Assembly: GCA_025963645.1 (NCBI GenBank)
Contig: JAOQAI010000017.1
Location: 186,001-250,000, forward strand
Length of the DNA: 64,000 bases
Reading direction: 5' to 3'
Origin: Flaviaestuariibacter sp.
GTDB lineage: Bacteria > Bacteroidota > Bacteroidia > Chitinophagales > Chitinophagaceae
This document shows positions 16,168 to 26,526 of this stretch, one piece after another. A program made the position numbers and the translations under genes. Each line of letters begins with the position of its first letter. Within the stretch, counting starts at the first letter, position 1. The notes under the pieces are model-generated. The model had not been told where the DNA came from and did no database searches. It saw only the letters and a program-made list of their open reading frames with translations.

Positions 16168-16369
16168 AATTGCTGCCAACATTTTGCTTTCCGCAATAAA
16201 TCTACAAAACATTCTTAAGGCCATTCCAAAACACCTGCTTTCCGCAAGCCATTTCATTTTGCTTTACATTCTCTCTACGCAGTAAAAAAAATCTTTATAC
16301 ACACCTCCCCAACCTACCGCCCGCCATCCTACCTTTAATCTCTATTTGCTCACAAAAACAGCTGCTTCC

Positions 16370-19300
16370 ATGTCCAATCACCGCGATACGCTGCTCCAGA
16401 CCTTTACCAAAGAATACAGCCGTCTTAACACCGCCCAGCGCCAGGCAGTAGACCGCATCGAAGGCCCCGTGATGGTGATCGCCGGCCCGGGCACGGGCAA
16501 AACGCAGATCCTGAGCGTTCGCATTGGTAAGATATTGCTGGAAACCGACGCCCAACCGTCCAATATTCTTTGCCTTACTTACACCGATGCCGGTGTACTG
16601 GCAATGCGCAAGCGGCTGGTGAGCATGATTGGTCCCGATGCGTACAGCGTGAATCTCCATTCCTACCACTCCTTTTGCAATACGGTTATCCAGCAGAACG
16701 GTCACCTTTTTCACAAGCGCGACCTGCAACCCATAAACGAGCTCGAACAGCAGCAATGCCTGATGAAGCTGATCGACGGCTTTGATAACGACAGTCCGCT
16801 GAAGCGCTATAAGACCGACGCCTATTTTGAAGCCGCTGCCCTCCGCGATCTGTTCAGCAGCATGAAGCGGGAAGGCTGGACCACCGAGGGGCTGTTGCAA
16901 AAGATCGATGAATACATCACCGACGTCGTGCCGGAAGAATTTGCCAATAAAGTGAAGCTGCGCAAAGGCATTGTGGAACTAACGCAAAAAGGCAAGGACG
17001 AAATAGACCGCATGGAAAAGCTGAAAGCCGCTGTAGAAGCCTTTCCGGCGTATCAGCAAATATTGAAAGAAGAAAAACGCTACGACTTTGACGATATGAT
17101 CGCCTGGGTGATCGATGTGTTTCAAACCCACCCCGACGTGCTGGCCCGCTACCAGGAGCAGTACCAGTATTTATTGGTAGATGAATACCAGGACACCAGC
17201 GGTTCGCAGAACAAGCTGGTGGAGCTGCTGATCTCTTACTGGGAAGTGCCGAACGTATTTGTGGTGGGTGATGACGACCAAAGCATCTTCCGCTTTCAGG
17301 GCGCCAATATGGAGAACATGATGCTGCTGGCAAAAAAGTTTGAAAAGGATTTGTTGAGGGTGGTGCTCACCGAAAACTACCGCAGCGTGCAGCCCATTCT
17401 TGATGCGGCGCACCACCTGATCGGCAATAACCTGCAGCGACTGACAAATGAGTACGCCGATATGCAAAAGATCCTTTCTTCATCCCATGCCGACCTGAAG
17501 GAGCTGCATATTGCGCCGGTAGTGCGCAGTGTGGCATCTGAATTTGAAGAGAATGTGCTGGTGGCGGAAGAGATCAAAGCCCTGATAGATGAAGGCATGA
17601 AGCCCGGTTGCATTGCAGTGATCTATAAAGAACACAAGACTGGCGATGAGTTGCAACGATTTTTACAATTGCAGGGTGTGCCGGTTTATGTGAAGCGCTC
17701 CGTGAACCTGTTGAAAGAATCCTTTATTAAAAAGGTGCTCTCCTTCCTGCAATACACCGTTGCCGAAACCGATATTCCGTATAGCGGCGAGCAGTACCTG
17801 TTCAATATCCTCCACTACGATTTTTATAAGATCCCGCCGCTGCGCATTGCTGCTCTTTGCCACGATGTGATGGCGCAGAAACGCAGTCGCAAAAACACGA
17901 CCCTGCGCAGCTATCTTAGCGAATTAGCGAAGGGCAGCAAAGGCTTGCTCTTCTCCGGCGATGCAGTAACGGATAGCTTAGTGCAGGTGCATACCGTGCT
18001 GGAAGGTTTGATCACTGACAGCCAGAACCTGCCGCTGCTGCGCTGGATGGAAAAGCTTTTTAATGAAGCCGGTATTCTTTCCTATATCATGCAGCAGCCC
18101 GAGAAGGCGGTGTACATGAAACAGCTCAATGGCTTCTTTGATTACATACAGGACGAGTGCCGCCGCAACCCAGACCTGGACCTTCCCGGACTGATGGCAC
18201 AGATACAGCTGCTGCATGAAAACAAAATACCTGTGCCGCTGGTGCAGACCGCCGGCAACGAAGACGGCGTGAACCTGCTCACCTGCCATGGCAGCAAGGG
18301 GCTGGAATATACCTATGTGTTCTTTATCGGTTGCCACTCGGGTTTGTGGGAAGGCAAGCGCAAATACAGTGGCGGCTACAAGCTGCCTTCTAACCTGTTT
18401 CAAAAAGTTAGTACGCAGGAGAATGAAGAAGAACTGCGGCGTCTTTTTTTTGTGGCTGCCACACGTGCTGAGAAATACTTGTATCTCTCGTTCCCATCGA
18501 ACAGCAACGAAGGCAAAAGCCTGGAAGCAAGCCGCTTTTTAGCGGAGATGAATGTAGATGGCAACCTGGAGATAAAGCCCGCCCCGATACCCGAAGAAAC
18601 CATTTTGAAATACAGTGTGCTGCGCTACGGCCTGCAACAAAAGCCAGTGCTCGAGCGGGGCGAGAAGGATTTCATCAACAGCCTGTTGTCTAATTTCAAG
18701 ATGAATGTAACGGCGCTGAACAACTACCTCGATTGCCCGGTGAAGTTTTATTACCAGTCGCTGGTGCGGGTGCCATCGGCTGTGAGCGAGAGCGCCCAGT
18801 TTGGCTCCTCCATGCACGATGCGCTGAATGCATATTATATCAAGATGATGGAGGGGAAAGCTTACCCGGCTAAGGATGTATTGTTGTCGCGGTTTAGCTG
18901 GCACCTGCACCAGCACCGCGAGGTATTCACGCCGGTAAGTCTCAAGCGCTTTACCGATTATGGATTACTATGCTTGGCTGCCTTTTACGAGGCGCATTTT
19001 GCCAACAGCACCGGTCCTGATTTTATCCGCACGGAGGTGGCGCTGGAAGCGATCGTCGATGGCATTCCGCTGAAAGGCTTTGCAGATAAGATACAGCATT
19101 GGGGCAACGAGATCGCAATCACCGATTTCAAAACGGGTTCACTGGAGAAGAGCAACAAGCGCTGGGAATTTGCGGAGCCCACACATCCGAAAAAGCCTGA
19201 GGGCGGCAACTATTGGCGGCAGGCGGTGTTCTATAAAATCCTTTCCGATAATGCCAAGGGCAAACGACCTGAATTACGCAGCATTGATTTTCTTTTCATC

Positions 19301-19534
19301 GAACCCAATAGCGACGGCGCTTTCGACCGGCGGCTGATACCCGTAAGCAAGGCAGATGAGGATTTTGTGCTGAGCCAAGTAAAGGATACCTGGGAGAAGA
19401 TACAGGAGCATGAGTTTTATGTGGGCTGCGGCAAGGCGGAGTGCCACTGGTGCAATTTTGTGAAGGAGCATAAGCTGTATGTGGAACTGGAGGAGGTGGA
19501 AGTGGATGAGCCTTTTGCGCTGCGAGCGGTTTAA
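16370..19534 (+). CDS. UvrD/PcrA-family helicase fused to a C-terminal PD-(D/E)XK nuclease domain
   Basis: AGPGTGKTQIL; LLVDEYQDTSGSQN; VVGDDDQSIFRFQGA; GSKGLEYTYVFFIGC; C-terminal LDCPVKFYYQSLVRVP...ITDFKTG and CGKAECHWC. Confidence 0.92.
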   Translation: MSNHRDTLLQTFTKEYSRLNTAQRQAVDRIEGPVMVIAGPGTGKTQILSVRIGKILLETDAQPSNILCLTYTDAGVLAMRKRLVSMIGPDAYSVNLHSYHSFCNTVIQQNGHLFHKRDLQPINELEQQQCLMKLIDGFDNDSPLKRYKTDAYFEAAALRDLFSSMKREGWTTEGLLQKIDEYITDVVPEEFANKVKLRKGIVELTQKGKDEIDRMEKLKAAVEAFPAYQQILKEEKRYDFDDMIAWVIDVFQTHPDVLARYQEQYQYLLVDEYQDTSGSQNKLVELLISYWEVPNVFVVGDDDQSIFRFQGANMENMMLLAKKFEKDLLRVVLTENYRSVQPILDAAHHLIGNNLQRLTNEYADMQKILSSSHADLKELHIAPVVRSVASEFEENVLVAEEIKALIDEGMKPGCIAVIYKEHKTGDELQRFLQLQGVPVYVKRSVNLLKESFIKKVLSFLQYTVAETDIPYSGEQYLFNILHYDFYKIPPLRIAALCHDVMAQKRSRKNTTLRSYLSELAKGSKGLLFSGDAVTDSLVQVHTVLEGLITDSQNLPLLRWMEKLFNEAGILSYIMQQPEKAVYMKQLNGFFDYIQDECRRNPDLDLPGLMAQIQLLHENKIPVPLVQTAGNEDGVNLLTCHGSKGLEYTYVFFIGCHSGLWEGKRKYSGGYKLPSNLFQKVSTQENEEELRRLFFVAATRAEKYLYLSFPSNSNEGKSLEASRFLAEMNVDGNLEIKPAPIPEETILKYSVLRYGLQQKPVLERGEKDFINSLLSNFKMNVTALNNYLDCPVKFYYQSLVRVPSAVSESAQFGSSMHDALNAYYIKMMEGKAYPAKDVLLSRFSWHLHQHREVFTPVSLKRFTDYGLLCLAAFYEAHFANSTGPDFIRTEVALEAIVDGIPLKGFADKIQHWGNEIAITDFKTGSLEKSNKRWEFAEPTHPKKPEGGNYWRQAVFYKILSDNAKGKRPELRSIDFLFIEPNSDGAFDRRLIPVSKADEDFVLSQVKDTWEKIQEHEFYVGCGKAECHWCNFVKEHKLYVELEEVEVDEPFALRAV

Positions 19535-19571
19535 TTGCCGCAAAGGCGCTAAGACACTAAGGAGCACAAAG
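19535..19571 (+). repeat. Left inverted repeat of the GxxExxY cassette
   Basis: TTGCCGCAAAGGCGCTAAGACACTAAGGAGCACAAAG; 32/37 identical to the reverse complement of 19970-20006. Confidence 0.85.
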
Positions 19572-19578
19572 TTTTAAG

Positions 19579-19974
19579 ATGAATACAGATCGCAAGCAAA
19601 GACAGGAAGAGATTGGAAAGCAAATAGTAGATATAGCTTTCCAATTGCACAAAAAGCTGGGTCCGGGATTATTAGAAAGTGTCTATGAGAAATGCTTCTG
19701 TTATGAATTGAAGAAGCGTGGGTTCTCTTTTGTCACGCAAAAGAAGGTGCCCATCATATATGATGAAATTGTTTTTGAAGAAGGTTTACGACTAGACTTG
19801 TTGGTTGAGGATTTGGTAATCGTGGAATTGAAAGCACAAGAAAACTATCACCCTGTTTGGGAGGCGCAATTGTTAAGCTACTTGAGATTAACGGGCATGG
19901 AGTTGGGCTACATTATCAACTTCACTGTATCCTTAATAAAAGATGGCATCAAGCGCATGAAACTTTCCTCTTAG
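19579..19974 (+). CDS. GxxExxY family protein (PD-(D/E)XK-like)
   Basis: GPGLLESVYEKCFCYEL (GxxExxY) and LRLDLLVEDLVIVELKA. Confidence 0.9.
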   Translation: MNTDRKQRQEEIGKQIVDIAFQLHKKLGPGLLESVYEKCFCYELKKRGFSFVTQKKVPIIYDEIVFEEGLRLDLLVEDLVIVELKAQENYHPVWEAQLLSYLRLTGMELGYIINFTVSLIKDGIKRMKLSS

Positions 19975-20006
19975 TGCTCCTTCGTGTCTTGGCGTCTTTG
20001 TGGCAA
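19970..20006 (-). repeat. Right inverted repeat of the GxxExxY cassette, overlapping the stop codon
   Basis: CTTAGTGCTCCTTCGTGTCTTGGCGTCTTTGTGGCAA. Confidence 0.85.
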
Positions 20007-20056: not shown

Positions 20057-21460
20057 ATGAAATGGTCGCCGCTTTTCTTTCTTGTATTCGTTGTAGGTTT
20101 TTTTTCCTTGCTAGGGTACTCTTGCGCTAACATCGTTCCGCCCTTGGGTGGCCCCAGGGACTCCCTGCCGCCCCGGTTGGTAAAGGCGACCCCGCCGGAT
20201 TCTGCCACCAATTTTACCGGTCGCCGGATAGAGCTGGAGTTTGATGAATTTCTCGATGACCTGCAGGACATTTCCAGAAACCTTTTGTTCACCCCGCTTT
20301 TTAATACGAATCCTTCCATTGCCGTGAAGCTGCGGACCATGACCATCAACCTGCGTGATTCGCTGGAGCCCAATACCACTTATACTTTTAATTTTGGTGA
20401 TGCCATACGTGACATCAATGAGGGCAATGTGCTGCGCAACTTCAGCTACACATTCTCGACCGGGTCGGCATTGGATTCCCTGACTTTCTCCGGAAGGGTA
20501 ATGATGGCCGAAACCGGTAAGGTTGATACTACCTTGATTGTTGTATTGTATCGCAACCTCTCTGATTCGGCTGTGCGATTGGAGAACCCGCGCTATGTGA
20601 CCAAGCTGGATGGAGCAGGTAATTTTAGCTTTCGCAACCTGCCTGCCGGGCGGTTTGCGGTATATGCACTAAGTCCTTCACCTTCCGGTCGCCGGTACCT
20701 AAACCCGGTGCAGCAGGCATTTGGCTTTCTCGATTCTTCAATAACAGTGCGTAGTGGTGTAGCTCCCGTTTCTATAATGGCATATAAAGATCCTGCGCCC
20801 ATCACAGCTGCAACTGCCTCAACCGGAGGCCGCGTCCAGGGCGCTGCCGACAAACGGTTGCGCATCACCAACAATCTTTCCAATAACCAACAAGACCTTT
20901 TAAGCGACCTGGTCCTCAACTTCGAACGCCCGCTTCGAGGCTTCGATTCGGCGCAGGTCAGGCTTTCGATTGATAGCACGTTTAAGCCAGTGCCTTTTTC
21001 CATAGCGCTTGATTCTTTTCGTCAAAAAGCTACGATTCGAACAGCATGGCAAGAGGGCAAAAAATATAACCTGGAGCTGGGAAGGGATTTTGCTGAAGAC
21101 ACAACCGGACGCAAGTTGCTGAAATCTGATACGCTTCATTTTACCACGAAGAAGCGTAGTGATTATGCCACCGTTTCCATTAAGCTGCGCAACCTTGATG
21201 CTACACAAAAGCCCGTGTTGCAGTTTTTCCAAAACGGCGCTTTGGCTTTTTCGGTGGCAGTTCCTAACGGCTCCTTTTCAAGTAGTCTTTTTGTTCCCGG
21301 CGACTATGAATTACGGGTGCTTTACGACAGGAACGGAAATGGCAAATGGGATCCGGGCCAATTTTTTGGTACGAAGCGCCAGCCAGAGATCGTTAAGCCG
21401 GTGGAGCGCCGGGCTCTGATAAAGGCAGGCGTGGAAAATGAATTCGAAGCCAGTCTTTAA
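20057..21460 (+). CDS. Ig-like domain-containing lipoprotein
   Basis: GYSCANIVPPLGGPRDSLPPRLVKATPPDSATNFTGRRIELEFDEFL. Confidence 0.85.
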   Translation: MKWSPLFFLVFVVGFFSLLGYSCANIVPPLGGPRDSLPPRLVKATPPDSATNFTGRRIELEFDEFLDDLQDISRNLLFTPLFNTNPSIAVKLRTMTINLRDSLEPNTTYTFNFGDAIRDINEGNVLRNFSYTFSTGSALDSLTFSGRVMMAETGKVDTTLIVVLYRNLSDSAVRLENPRYVTKLDGAGNFSFRNLPAGRFAVYALSPSPSGRRYLNPVQQAFGFLDSSITVRSGVAPVSIMAYKDPAPITAATASTGGRVQGAADKRLRITNNLSNNQQDLLSDLVLNFERPLRGFDSAQVRLSIDSTFKPVPFSIALDSFRQKATIRTAWQEGKKYNLELGRDFAEDTTGRKLLKSDTLHFTTKKRSDYATVSIKLRNLDATQKPVLQFFQNGALAFSVAVPNGSFSSSLFVPGDYELRVLYDRNGNGKWDPGQFFGTKRQPEIVKPVERRALIKAGVENEFEASL

Positions 21461-22750: not shown

Positions 22751-24835
22751 TTGTATCTTTTTGGCGTGAGAGCCGCCCTATCCATTTGGAAAAGAATTCC
22801 AATGCTTCGGTTGCTGATTCCCTTTATCTTAGGTATCGGGCTGCAATGGTATGTCACTATTCCCCTGCTTTGGCTTTGCGCCGCAGGTTTTGTGGCTTGT
22901 GGTATTAGTTCGTTTTTACTTTTCTTCAGCACGGCCCGTAAATTTCAAATAGGATGGTTACAGGGTACAGCATTGCAAATCCTTTTAGTGGTATTAGGCA
23001 GCCTGGCTGTCTGGAGCCACGATATAAGAAATACAAAGAACTGGTTTGGGCATCAATACGCACAAGGAGAAAAGCTGCTGGTGACTTTGCAAGAGCCGCT
23101 GGTAGAAAAGGCAGCTTCCTACAAAGCATTAGGAGAAGTGAAGGGTCTTTACAAAGAAGGCGTGTTTTATAAAGCAGCAGGCAAACTATTAGTATATTTT
23201 AAAAAGGATGCATCAGCATTACAATTAGGCTATGGCTCGCAAGTCGTCATTGGACGACCGTTGCAGGAGATCCGGAACAGCGGCAATCCCGGCGGCTTTG
23301 ATTATAAACGCTATAGCTTGTTTGCCGGCATTACGCACCAGGTTTATTTAACACCCGCTGACTATAAACTTTTGCCACAACAAAACGAACAGGCCTTCCG
23401 CAGGGCTATCTTTCACAGCCGCAAAGCGATCGTCCGCATCTTCAAGGAAAATATAGCCGGCGCTAAAGAACAAGGTTTGGCAGAAGCATTATTGATAGGC
23501 TACAAAGATGATCTTGATAAAAAGCTGGTGCAATCTTATACCAATACCGGCGTAGTGCATATCATAGCTATTTCGGGATTGCACCTGGCTTTGATTTACA
23601 GCTTACTCATGTGGGTAACGAAACTGATGAAAGGACGGCAACTGCAATGGTGGCGGTTGTTGATAGTAGTGAGTTGCCTGTGGGTATTCAGTTTATTGAC
23701 TGGTGCGCAACCATCAGTGCTACGTGCAGCTGTTATGTTTACGGCTATTGCATCCGCCACTGTCTTAAAGCGCCGCACTTCCATTTACAACACCATCGCA
23801 TTGGCCGCCTTTCTCTTGCTTTGCTGGAACCCGTTCTGGCTCTGGGATGTTGGCTTTCAGCTTTCCTTTTTGGCGGTGCTGAGTATCATAATCTTTTATC
23901 AACCTATCTATAACTGGGTTTTTATAGAGAATAAGACCGTTGATTATTTATGGAAACTGCTGGCGGGTTCTTTGGCCGCACAGGTATTAACCCTGCCTAT
24001 CTGCATTTATTATTTCCACCAGTTCCCGGTCCTGTTCTTATTTGCCAACCTGTTAGCCGTACCGCTTTCGGGGTTGATTGTTTATGCCGAAATAATCTTG
24101 TGTGTATTCCATTTCATTAAGCCCCTTGCTACATTTTGGGGATGGGTGCTGACTAAAAGCATACGACTTATGAATACATACATTGAGCGGCTGGAGACGG
24201 TGCCGTTTGCGGTGTGGAATGGCATGTCAATAACGGTATGGCAAACCGTATTGCTGTATGGATTTATAATCGGCATTGCACATTGGCTCATGCGATCGGT
24301 GAAGCGTTCGGCAACGCTTGCCTTCGTATGCCTGGCAGCCTTAACCTGCCTTCGTTCCTATTCATTCGTGCAGGCGAATAAGCAGCATAAGCTTATCGTT
24401 TACAATATTCCAAAGCACCAGGCCATAGATATTATGGATGGCAGGCGTTATGCCTTCCTGGGAGATGCGGCATTAACGCAAAATGATTTCCTGCGTAATT
24501 TCCATCTTCAACCATCAAGGGTGCAGGACCGCGTAATGGAAGACTCTCTGGCACCGACAAAGGGTTTCGGTTTTTACGGGAAGCAGGTATTGGTGGTTGA
24601 TACGACGTGCCGGTTCTCACCTTTACCAATCAAGCCTCCTATTGACCTGCTGGTACTTTCTAAGAACCCCAAACTATACATTTCAGATCTTACTAATACT
24701 TTTGCCATAAAGCAAGTGGTCATAGACGGATCAGTGCCGCAGTGGAAAGCTGCCCGCTGGCAACGCGACTGCGATTCGCTGCGCATACCCTGTTACAATG
24801 TTGTGGAAAACGGCGCTTTTGTGCTAAACTGGTAG
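22751..24835 (+). CDS. comEC: ComEC/Rec2 family competence protein
   Basis: SGNPGGFDYKRYSLFAGITHQVYL; IAISGLHLALIYSLL; TGAQPSVLRAAVMFT; GFQLSFLAVLSII. Confidence 0.92.
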   Translation: MYLFGVRAALSIWKRIPMLRLLIPFILGIGLQWYVTIPLLWLCAAGFVACGISSFLLFFSTARKFQIGWLQGTALQILLVVLGSLAVWSHDIRNTKNWFGHQYAQGEKLLVTLQEPLVEKAASYKALGEVKGLYKEGVFYKAAGKLLVYFKKDASALQLGYGSQVVIGRPLQEIRNSGNPGGFDYKRYSLFAGITHQVYLTPADYKLLPQQNEQAFRRAIFHSRKAIVRIFKENIAGAKEQGLAEALLIGYKDDLDKKLVQSYTNTGVVHIIAISGLHLALIYSLLMWVTKLMKGRQLQWWRLLIVVSCLWVFSLLTGAQPSVLRAAVMFTAIASATVLKRRTSIYNTIALAAFLLLCWNPFWLWDVGFQLSFLAVLSIIIFYQPIYNWVFIENKTVDYLWKLLAGSLAAQVLTLPICIYYFHQFPVLFLFANLLAVPLSGLIVYAEIILCVFHFIKPLATFWGWVLTKSIRLMNTYIERLETVPFAVWNGMSITVWQTVLLYGFIIGIAHWLMRSVKRSATLAFVCLAALTCLRSYSFVQANKQHKLIVYNIPKHQAIDIMDGRRYAFLGDAALTQNDFLRNFHLQPSRVQDRVMEDSLAPTKGFGFYGKQVLVVDTTCRFSPLPIKPPIDLLVLSKNPKLYISDLTNTFAIKQVVIDGSVPQWKAARWQRDCDSLRIPCYNVVENGAFVLNW

Positions 24836-24882
24836 CGCCTACCTTTGTCCCTCTTTCGAACGCCCGCCCCAACCATTTTAGC

Positions 24883-26526
24883 ATGAAAAAGAAAATCTCC
24901 GCAGCGCTGCTTTCTGTTTTTTATAAAGACGGACTGGAGCCGCTGGTACGTCAATTAAGCAGCCAGGGCACGACGCTTTACTCTACCGGCGGCACACAAG
25001 CTTTTATTGAAGGACTGGGCATTGAAGTAATTCCTGTTGAAAGCCTGACCTCTTATCCTTCGATCTTGGGTGGCCGAGTAAAAACCTTGCACCCCCTGGT
25101 ATTTGGTGGCATCCTGGGCAAGCGGGCTGATGCCATGCATTTGAACGATATGCTGGAGTATGGCATCCCGGAGATAGACCTGGTAGTGGTTGATCTGTAT
25201 CCCTTTCAAGAGACGGTAGCACAAACAAACGATGAAGCGCAGATCATAGAAAAGATCGACATTGGTGGTCCTTCGATGATACGGGCAGCCGCCAAGAACT
25301 TCAGCGATGTCGTAGTGATCGCTTCAAAAGACGACTATAGCGGCTTGGTGGAGACACTGCAAGCGCAAGAGGGCGAAACAACACTGGAACAACGCAAAGC
25401 CTACGCAGCCAAAGCCTTCCAGGTAGTGGCGGATTATGATATTGCCATTACGAATTACTTCAGTGCCGACACACCGCTTACCGTGTTTGGAAAAGAGCAG
25501 CAAACGCCGCTGCGCTATGGCGAGAACCCGCACCAAAAAGCGGCTTTCTTTGGTGATCTTTCGCAATGCTTTACACAGCTACACGGCAAGGAGATCAGCT
25601 ATAATAATCTGGTAGATATTGATGCAGCGGTTGAATTGATAAGGGATGCAGCCCCCTCCGGCTTCCCCGGCGGGGGAGAGCCCCAGGCACAAGGCCAGCT
25701 TAGCGGCGACCCTGCCATAAATACAAGTGCGTCGCAAAGCGGGCCAGGTGCGGTTGGTGGTCCTTCCTACCGGGAAGGGTCGGGGATGGGCTCGGCCGTC
25801 TTTGCCATCATCAAACACACCAACCCTTGTGGTGTAGCCAGCCGGTCAACGGTGGCGGAGGCGTGGACAGCCGCATTGGCATCAGACCCTGAAAGTGCTT
25901 TTGGTGGTGTATTGGTTTGTAATGGAACAATTGATGTAGCTACTGCAACAGCCATCAACGAAATCTTTTTTGAAGTGCTGTTAGCGCCTTCTTTTGAGGA
26001 AGAGGCCTTGAGTATTTTGAAGTCCAGGAAGAATCGTATTCTATTACAAATGAAGGAAAAAGCCTTTGCTTCAAAAGTCTACAAAAGCCTGTTGAACGGC
26101 ACCTTAGTGCAGGATAAGGATAACAGCAATTATGAAAGGTGGGAAGAGGTCGGGGGCAAAGAATCCGGTGCGCAGAAAGACGATCTGGGGTTTGCCAATC
26201 TTATCTGCAAGCATCTAAAAAGCAATGCTATTGCCTTGGTAAAGGATGGACAGTTGATTGGTAAAGGCTGCGGCCAAACGAGCCGCATTGATGCCTTGCG
26301 CCAGGCGCTGGAAAAAGCAAGACAATTCAATTTTGACCTAACCGGCGCCGTCATGGCCAGTGATGCGTTCTTTCCATTTAATGATTGTGTGCAACTCGGG
26401 TATGAAGCCGGCATCACTGCCTTTATACAGCCCGGCGGCTCCATCCGCGACAAGGACAGCATAGACTATTGCAAAGAACACGGTTTGGCAATGGTGTTAA
26501 CAGGAACCAGGCATTTCAGACACTAG
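24883..26526 (+). CDS. purH: Bifunctional AICAR formyltransferase/IMP cyclohydrolase carrying an in-frame insertion
   Basis: Start chosen at MKKKISAALLSVFYKDGLEPLVRQL; GGRVKTLHPLVFGGIL; RYGENPHQKAAFF; IIKHTNPCGVASR; extra low-complexity segment between VELIRD and VFAIIKHTN. Confidence 0.95.
   Translation: MKKKISAALLSVFYKDGLEPLVRQLSSQGTTLYSTGGTQAFIEGLGIEVIPVESLTSYPSILGGRVKTLHPLVFGGILGKRADAMHLNDMLEYGIPEIDLVVVDLYPFQETVAQTNDEAQIIEKIDIGGPSMIRAAAKNFSDVVVIASKDDYSGLVETLQAQEGETTLEQRKAYAAKAFQVVADYDIAITNYFSADTPLTVFGKEQQTPLRYGENPHQKAAFFGDLSQCFTQLHGKEISYNNLVDIDAAVELIRDAAPSGFPGGGEPQAQGQLSGDPAINTSASQSGPGAVGGPSYREGSGMGSAVFAIIKHTNPCGVASRSTVAEAWTAALASDPESAFGGVLVCNGTIDVATATAINEIFFEVLLAPSFEEEALSILKSRKNRILLQMKEKAFASKVYKSLLNGTLVQDKDNSNYERWEEVGGKESGAQKDDLGFANLICKHLKSNAIALVKDGQLIGKGCGQTSRIDALRQALEKARQFNFDLTGAVMASDAFFPFNDCVQLGYEAGITAFIQPGGSIRDKDSIDYCKEHGLAMVLTGTRHFRH
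25649..25792. repeat. Palindromic MITE-like insertion translated within purH
   Basis: Imperfect outer arms AGCCCCCTCCGGCTTCCCCGGCGGGGGAG and ...CCTACCGGGAAGGGTCGGGGATGGGCT; inner stem GGCCAGCTTAGCGGCGAC / GTCGCAAAGCGGGCC. Confidence 0.65.

Follow-up and report, generated by a model that had tools for sequence, protein, structure and literature searches.

The closest described counterparts of the locus analysed here are the REPtrons, in which a single chromosomal RAYT (TnpA-REP) gene is flanked by palindromic repeats and accompanied by dispersed gene-less hairpins of matching class (PMC8266576, PMC8049555). These systems show long vertical inheritance, near-absence from plasmids, singlets as remnants, and co-distribution of gene and repeats (PMC8266576, PMC8049555). 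A second group is the Rpn/YhgA-like nucleases (PF04754), which have a PD-(D/E)XK fold, have been suggested to favour recombination as well as template switching, and are described as showing little sequence specificity (PMC5350276). GxxExxY proteins form a widespread family whose function is unknown, and a paper that uses the name does so only in passing. Here we describe a GxxExxY gene enclosed by inverted repeats in a 64-kb stretch of DNA (the window). Our favoured reading, to which we give a probability of about 60%, treats the unit as a gene-plus-palindrome element of the chromosome, similar to REPIN/RAYT systems but with a nuclease of the PD-(D/E)XK type.

The original prediction had placed the gene between 37-nt inverted repeats, the left one directly 3' of a helicase stop codon and the right one overlapping the stop codon of the gene itself. 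We reproduced the coordinates and the match exactly: 19535-19571 and the inverted copy at 19970-20006 agree at 32/37 positions (86%) with 398 nt in between, and both contacts with the stop codons were confirmed. The features of the locus are as follows.

16346..19534, + strand: upstream neighbour, UvrD/PcrA-like helicase, named from its own sequence
19535..19571, + strand: left arm, TTGCCGCAAAGGCGCTAAGACACTAAGGAGCACAAAG, starting directly 3' of the helicase stop codon (ORF end 19534)
19539-19545, 19547-19553, 19555-19561 and 19565-19571, + strand: left-arm heptamers CGCAAAG, CGCTAAG, CACTAAG and CACAAAG, spacing 8, 8, 10
19579..19974, + strand: GxxExxY gene, 131 aa, with TIGR04256 and PF13366 profile matches
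19970..20006, - strand: right arm, covering the final 5 nt of the GxxExxY reading frame, stop included
20002-19996, 19994-19988, 19986-19980 and 19976-19970, - strand: right-arm heptamers CACAAAG, CGCCAAG, CACGAAG and CACTAAG, spacing 8, 8, 10
20057..21460, + strand: downstream neighbour, Ig-like/lipoprotein-like ORF, named by eye

Each arm consists of four CRCNAAG copies that point inward, giving the order array, gene, inverted array, and this 8-8-10 layout of heptamers is common to many Chitinophagaceae cassettes. Alignment of the upstream and downstream arms scored 27, compared with a maximum of 15 in 50 shuffles. The heptamer pattern was found nowhere in the 64-kb window beyond the two arms, and an Rfam search gave no match. 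Synteny with relatives identifies the junction 3' of the UvrD/PcrA-like helicase as the insertion site of the cassette; a conserved TAAGTTTG element upstream of the Ig-like/lipoprotein-like ORF falls outside it. Elsewhere in the window, the purH ORF (24742-26526) carries an in-frame insertion, PSGFPGGGEPQAQGQLSGDPAINTSASQSGPGAVGGPSYREGSGMGS, at 25648-25795, ahead of a conserved AVFAIIKHTNPCG segment. This insertion resembles a repeat placed inside a coding gene.

The encoded protein had been described as PD-(D/E)XK-like, and this assignment holds. It matched TIGR04256 at 138.9 bits (cut-off 35) and PF13366 (PDDEXK_3) at 134.5 bits (cut-off 22), and its PD-(D/E)XK core is formed by E33, D73, E83 and K85. 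In 57 relatives D73, E83 and K85 are invariant and E33 is conserved in at least 90%. An AlphaFold model had a pLDDT of 93. Foldseek placed first SSO0001 (4ic1), a Cas4 protein, followed by Bax1, LHK-Exo, lambda exonuclease and Hjc; the E-values were only 0.01-0.1, none below 0.001, and the top folds were mostly PD-(D/E)XK-type nucleases. Pfam/NCBIfam searches of the protein returned PF13366 and TIGR04256 alone, with no HUH/Y1 or other recognised transposase domain and no match to the LAGLIDADG, GIY-YIG, HNH or His-Cys homing families.

Inverted arms are a general feature of the family. The search for cassettes at other loci found many, and among 192 GxxExxY loci, drawn from the host genome, from relatives of it and from a public collection of genomes, 59% are flanked by an inverted repeat scoring at least 18, compared with 1.0% of 1008 control windows displaced along the same DNA. 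The original prediction could have been overturned had GxxExxY genes elsewhere consistently lacked such repeats, and this is not what we found. About 41% of the loci have no clear inverted repeat by the score test, which may reflect decay or the lack of a requirement. In the host genome (G000), a draft that is 63% complete and has Chitinophagaceae among its relatives, there are seven GxxExxY loci, of which two are truncated or broken; flanking inverted similarity is present at all seven, with differing motifs.

The arm motif recurs in nine or more bacterial phyla and at one locus of an archaeon. Besides Bacteroidota, a AACCACAAAGGCACAAAGG-type motif is recognisable in Cyanobacteriota, Chloroflexota, Acidobacteriota, Planctomycetota, Nitrospirota, Myxococcota, Pseudomonadota and one Methanotrichaceae contig; several of these placements are MAG contigs, of which single ones may be binning errors, and the pattern rests on no single one. 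Motif types differ by clade, with CRCNAAG in the clade of the window and CRCNGAG, CACRGAT, CACGAAT and GATT-type motifs in others.

We found that arm class follows protein lineage. On a protein tree of 87 Bacteroidota loci, with arm class given only to loci whose inverted-repeat score is at least 16, there are 13 changes of arm class, compared with a mean of 41 in shuffles (minimum 34). Cassettes of A and T class coexist within one genome, and the host genome carries CRCNAAG and GATT-type cassettes on distant protein branches. Syntenic metH cassettes have two arms of the same class, both CRCNAAG or both CRCNGAG. Common descent of linked DNA explains part of this correlation; it does not explain the retention of motifs at 45-50% protein identity. 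Since the arm sequence tracks the protein, GxxExxY plausibly acts on the repeats. The column that best separates CRCNAAG from CRCNGAG proteins is a Tyr in the LGY segment, whose frequency differs with too few independent pairs for significance. A comparison of own arms with orthologous arms for concerted evolution was dropped, because its windows include conserved coding or start regions; the insertion in the G027/G152 pair, described below, is cleaner.

Empty sites in relatives had been proposed as a check, and we found empty and gene-less sites both at the helicase locus and at a second locus, metH. In many Chitinophagaceae-type genomes, close relatives of the window cassette lie between a gene for homocysteine methyltransferase and the rest of metH, and the nearest tree relative of the window protein is the metH cassette of G014 (SH-aLRT 88). 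In that clade the location changes between metH and elsewhere about 12 times on the best tree, of which supported branches force only 2. The metH junction itself holds a cassette, a hairpin, a single arm or nothing, depending on the relative. Among 18 genomes of the genus, with arms in degraded sites judged by eye, there are five cassettes (G002, G003, G013, G014, G016), two two-armed gene-less sites (G000, G009), five right arms alone (G004, G007, G008, G010, G015), five junctions without arms and one with another insert. The two-armed gene-less hairpin of G000 is thus in the host genome of the window cassette.

At the helicase junction, only G000 and G009 have a cassette, and the two cassettes are oppositely oriented; the three closest relatives have nothing there, and G003 has a gene-less palindrome. 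The G009 cassette is broken and its protein is not the closest to that of the window, and it may be an independent insertion. The two genomes with helicase cassettes are the same two that have two-armed gene-less metH sites (n=2, with shared ancestry possible). This coincidence fits movement of the gene between palindromes and is suggestive only. We conclude that the window cassette probably relocated from metH to its present site after the helicase gene.

The inverted ends, the empty sites in relatives and the opposite-orientation cassette of G009 would suit a simple selfish transposon, in which the whole cassette moves by cut-and-paste or copy-paste and the arms are terminal inverted repeats. 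However, the donor-like site still has both arms, arms without a gene outnumber cassettes, and the protein is a bare 131-aa PD-(D/E)XK domain. Target-site duplications outside 19535/20006, which the original prediction had proposed to look for, were not found: no obvious direct repeat was seen at the boundaries of the cassette or of the G027 hairpins, in a comparison whose empty sites come from relatives more distant than very close strains. We therefore consider a transposon of this kind highly improbable. Four near-identical copies in G011 were considered as recent transposition and rejected; they are apparently overlapping or alternative contigs of one place.

In other genomes the metH junction holds other single genes. 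By eye, ORF6N-like ORFs are seen in L290, L294, L305, L311 and L344, and DUF1016/YhcG-type nuclease-like ORFs in L289 and L356; in G001 (L425) the junction contains a Y1/RAYT gene with its own repeats. The junction appears to be a hotspot for genes associated with repeats.

When the gene is absent, the two arms make up a palindrome of 70-110 nt that is dispersed in intergenic spaces of gene-carrying genomes, and solo palindromes with the cassette motif are found elsewhere in the host genome. Counted as arrays of three heptamers in 61 genomes, dispersed arms are present in 30 of 42 genomes with GxxExxY and in 1 of 19 without it (606 and 38 copies; p=1e-6, which is indicative given the kinship among genomes). 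A reversed-heptamer control pattern is nearly absent from the 61 genomes. In other phyla 10/10 genomes have dispersed arms, two of which (G160, G164) give matches to the reversed control pattern as well.

Hairpin populations have dialects. G027 has CACTAAG-based hairpins of about 100 bp that share one loop. The dialect of G009, CACGAAG...AGCGCGAAG, is the same as that of its only cassette, a broken one, and has about 100 dispersed array matches. G027 has 147 dispersed arm matches and none of its three cassettes belongs to that dialect, so that a hairpin population apparently can outlive or lack its gene. G034 is the one exception to the association, with 38 heptamer-array matches, no GxxExxY match and one Y1 match; at its metH junction a single right arm is left (L336). 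In contigs C14, C32 and C21 of G002, heptamer arrays are repeated in short tandem runs whose period is about 80-150 nt, reminiscent of BIME-type arrays.

Dispersed hairpins that lack a cognate gene, as in G027 and G034, together with the Y1 gene inside the metH junction of G001, raise the alternative that we are dealing with ordinary REP/MITE hairpins, mobilised by RAYT/Y1 or host recombination, and with GxxExxY genes as passengers between two copies. However, the association between GxxExxY and repeats holds in genomes with and without Y1 (p=0.0012 and p=0.0065), and Y1 transposases have no effect on repeats once GxxExxY is allowed for. Repeats are present in G000, G003 and G009, where no Y1 match was found (in G000 by a PF01797 search of the 63% complete genome). 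Passengers would also have to account for an arm class that tracks the GxxExxY tree and for the same motif flanking the family across phyla. We regard this alternative as quite improbable.

Most copies persist vertically. Many cassette groups are syntenic across genera and the order, and gene orientation is kept in 318/318 orthologous pairs with both flanks aligned, with no gene flipping; this synteny and conserved orientation indicate that movement is rare. GxxExxY is also nearly absent from mobile DNA (plasmids 5/72,556, phages 0/50,697), where the copies were too few to supply clean empty sites. Each of these observations would also suit an immobile vertical unit without spread, whose arms are regulatory or terminator hairpins or sites that GxxExxY uses for its own control or for genome maintenance, for example cruciform resolution. 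Against this, the 192 loci fall into 115 flank groups (an upper estimate, because grouping needs DNA-level flank matches), the window cassette has apparently relocated, gene-less palindromes lie at other sites, and families of hairpins of about 100 bp have been amplified within genomes. An immobile unit is therefore unlikely in our view, and we retain the gene-plus-palindrome element as the better account, as a slow-moving system of low mobility. Of the minimal mobile or homing-like cassette originally predicted, a real repeat-gene-repeat unit stands and includes most GxxExxY genes; it is neither a frequent hopper nor a member of a known homing family. Fixation at one syntenic place, which would have spoken against mobility, describes many copies and not the variable helicase site.

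The hairpins themselves also differ between orthologs. In the colinear pair G027/G152 (about 80-90% DNA identity), the loop is inverted in two orthologous hairpins and not in a third; the comparison of loop orientation leaves out L387:17796. The third hairpin has the same insertion of about 28 bp in both arms, and both arms of its ortholog are without it. In DNA folding a G027 hairpin gave z = -7.6, and the degraded hairpin at metH in the host genome gave z = -2.5. Two further observations concern the same pair. A G027 hairpin at L388:11970-12061 lies at a rearrangement breakpoint relative to G152, with the left flank at C11 about 293.6 kb, reversed, and the right flank at 121.6 kb. At L390:15079-15170 and L390:11948-11982, a CRCNAAG hairpin or arm lies opposite a hairpin or array of the CACGGAT or CACAGAG class in G152 (C11). 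Loop inversion and concerted arm change are signs of hairpin- or cruciform-mediated exchange, and the nuclease may cause it. Host replication errors at palindromes, without a dedicated enzyme, can also give both.

For the gene-plus-palindrome element we propose the following mechanism. The PD-(D/E)XK protein would recognise the arrays of the motif, probably when they are extruded as a cruciform or form a single-stranded hairpin, and would cut the palindrome. Template-switching repair or gene conversion between dispersed palindromes could then homogenise the two arms and flip or replace the centre. Repair might occasionally copy the gene from one palindrome into another, in a homing-like manner, or copy the hairpin to a new place, as for REPINs. 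The element probably spreads by such cutting and repair-copying, and the window cassette would probably represent one relocation of this type, from the metH junction to the helicase junction.

GxxExxY and its arms look like an undescribed genomic repeat system based on an enzyme unrelated to RAYT. Our searches on the arm sequences, TIGR04256 and PF13366, in openly accessible journal literature, found no description of this gene-repeat association. The link to a specific conserved DNA motif gives the family a testable substrate. A broader proposal, which we put forward tentatively and at somewhat below even odds, is a cross-phylum class of repeat nucleases in which a PD-(D/E)XK enzyme coevolves with iterated-heptamer palindromes, cuts cruciforms or hairpins, and drives homing, arm homogenisation and loop inversion; it would be a non-HUH counterpart of RAYT/REPIN and would give the GxxExxY family a function. 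If true, genes with dispersed palindromes, as known from RAYT/REPIN, have arisen also around an enzyme of unrelated origin, and the intergenic repeats of this class that occur in Bacteroidota, Cyanobacteriota, Chloroflexota, Acidobacteriota and others would be explained.

How the unit compares with known systems can be summarised by enzyme, arms and gene-less copies. Like MITEs, it includes short gene-less elements with inverted repeats that are dispersed in the genome (about 100 bp long in G027); unlike MITEs, both arms are iterated heptamers, the partner gene encodes a nuclease and no target-site duplication was found. With Rpn/YhgA-like proteins it has the PD-(D/E)XK fold in common, although the Pfam families differ and the portion of the Rpn report available to us mentions no arm arrays. 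As in homing endonuclease genes, a nuclease gene lies inside what appears to be its own bipartite recognition palindrome, and gene-less palindromes at orthologous sites are possible targets. In contrast to those genes, the cassette sits in no conserved coding target and has no known homing family motif. The closest likeness is to the REPtron, with which it shares a gene with flanking palindromic repeats, matching dispersed hairpins, vertical persistence, near-absence from plasmids, singlets and gene-repeat co-distribution; gene-less palindromes of the cassette class in the same genome are a REPtron trait as well, as a functional analogy only. The differences are that the enzyme is PD-(D/E)XK and not an HUH/Y1 TnpA-REP, with no need for a Y1 gene in the genome, and that the arms consist of heptamers repeated at a spacing of 8-10 nt, with the gene inside one palindrome. 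REPs are preceded by a conserved tetranucleotide, mostly GTAG; by eye, no GTAG was noted here, and arms begin with TTGCC, TTGAACC or TTTACC followed by CRCNAAG arrays. Although the GxxExxY unit works in the manner of a RAYT/REPIN pair, it does not count as one, because its enzyme belongs to a different family.
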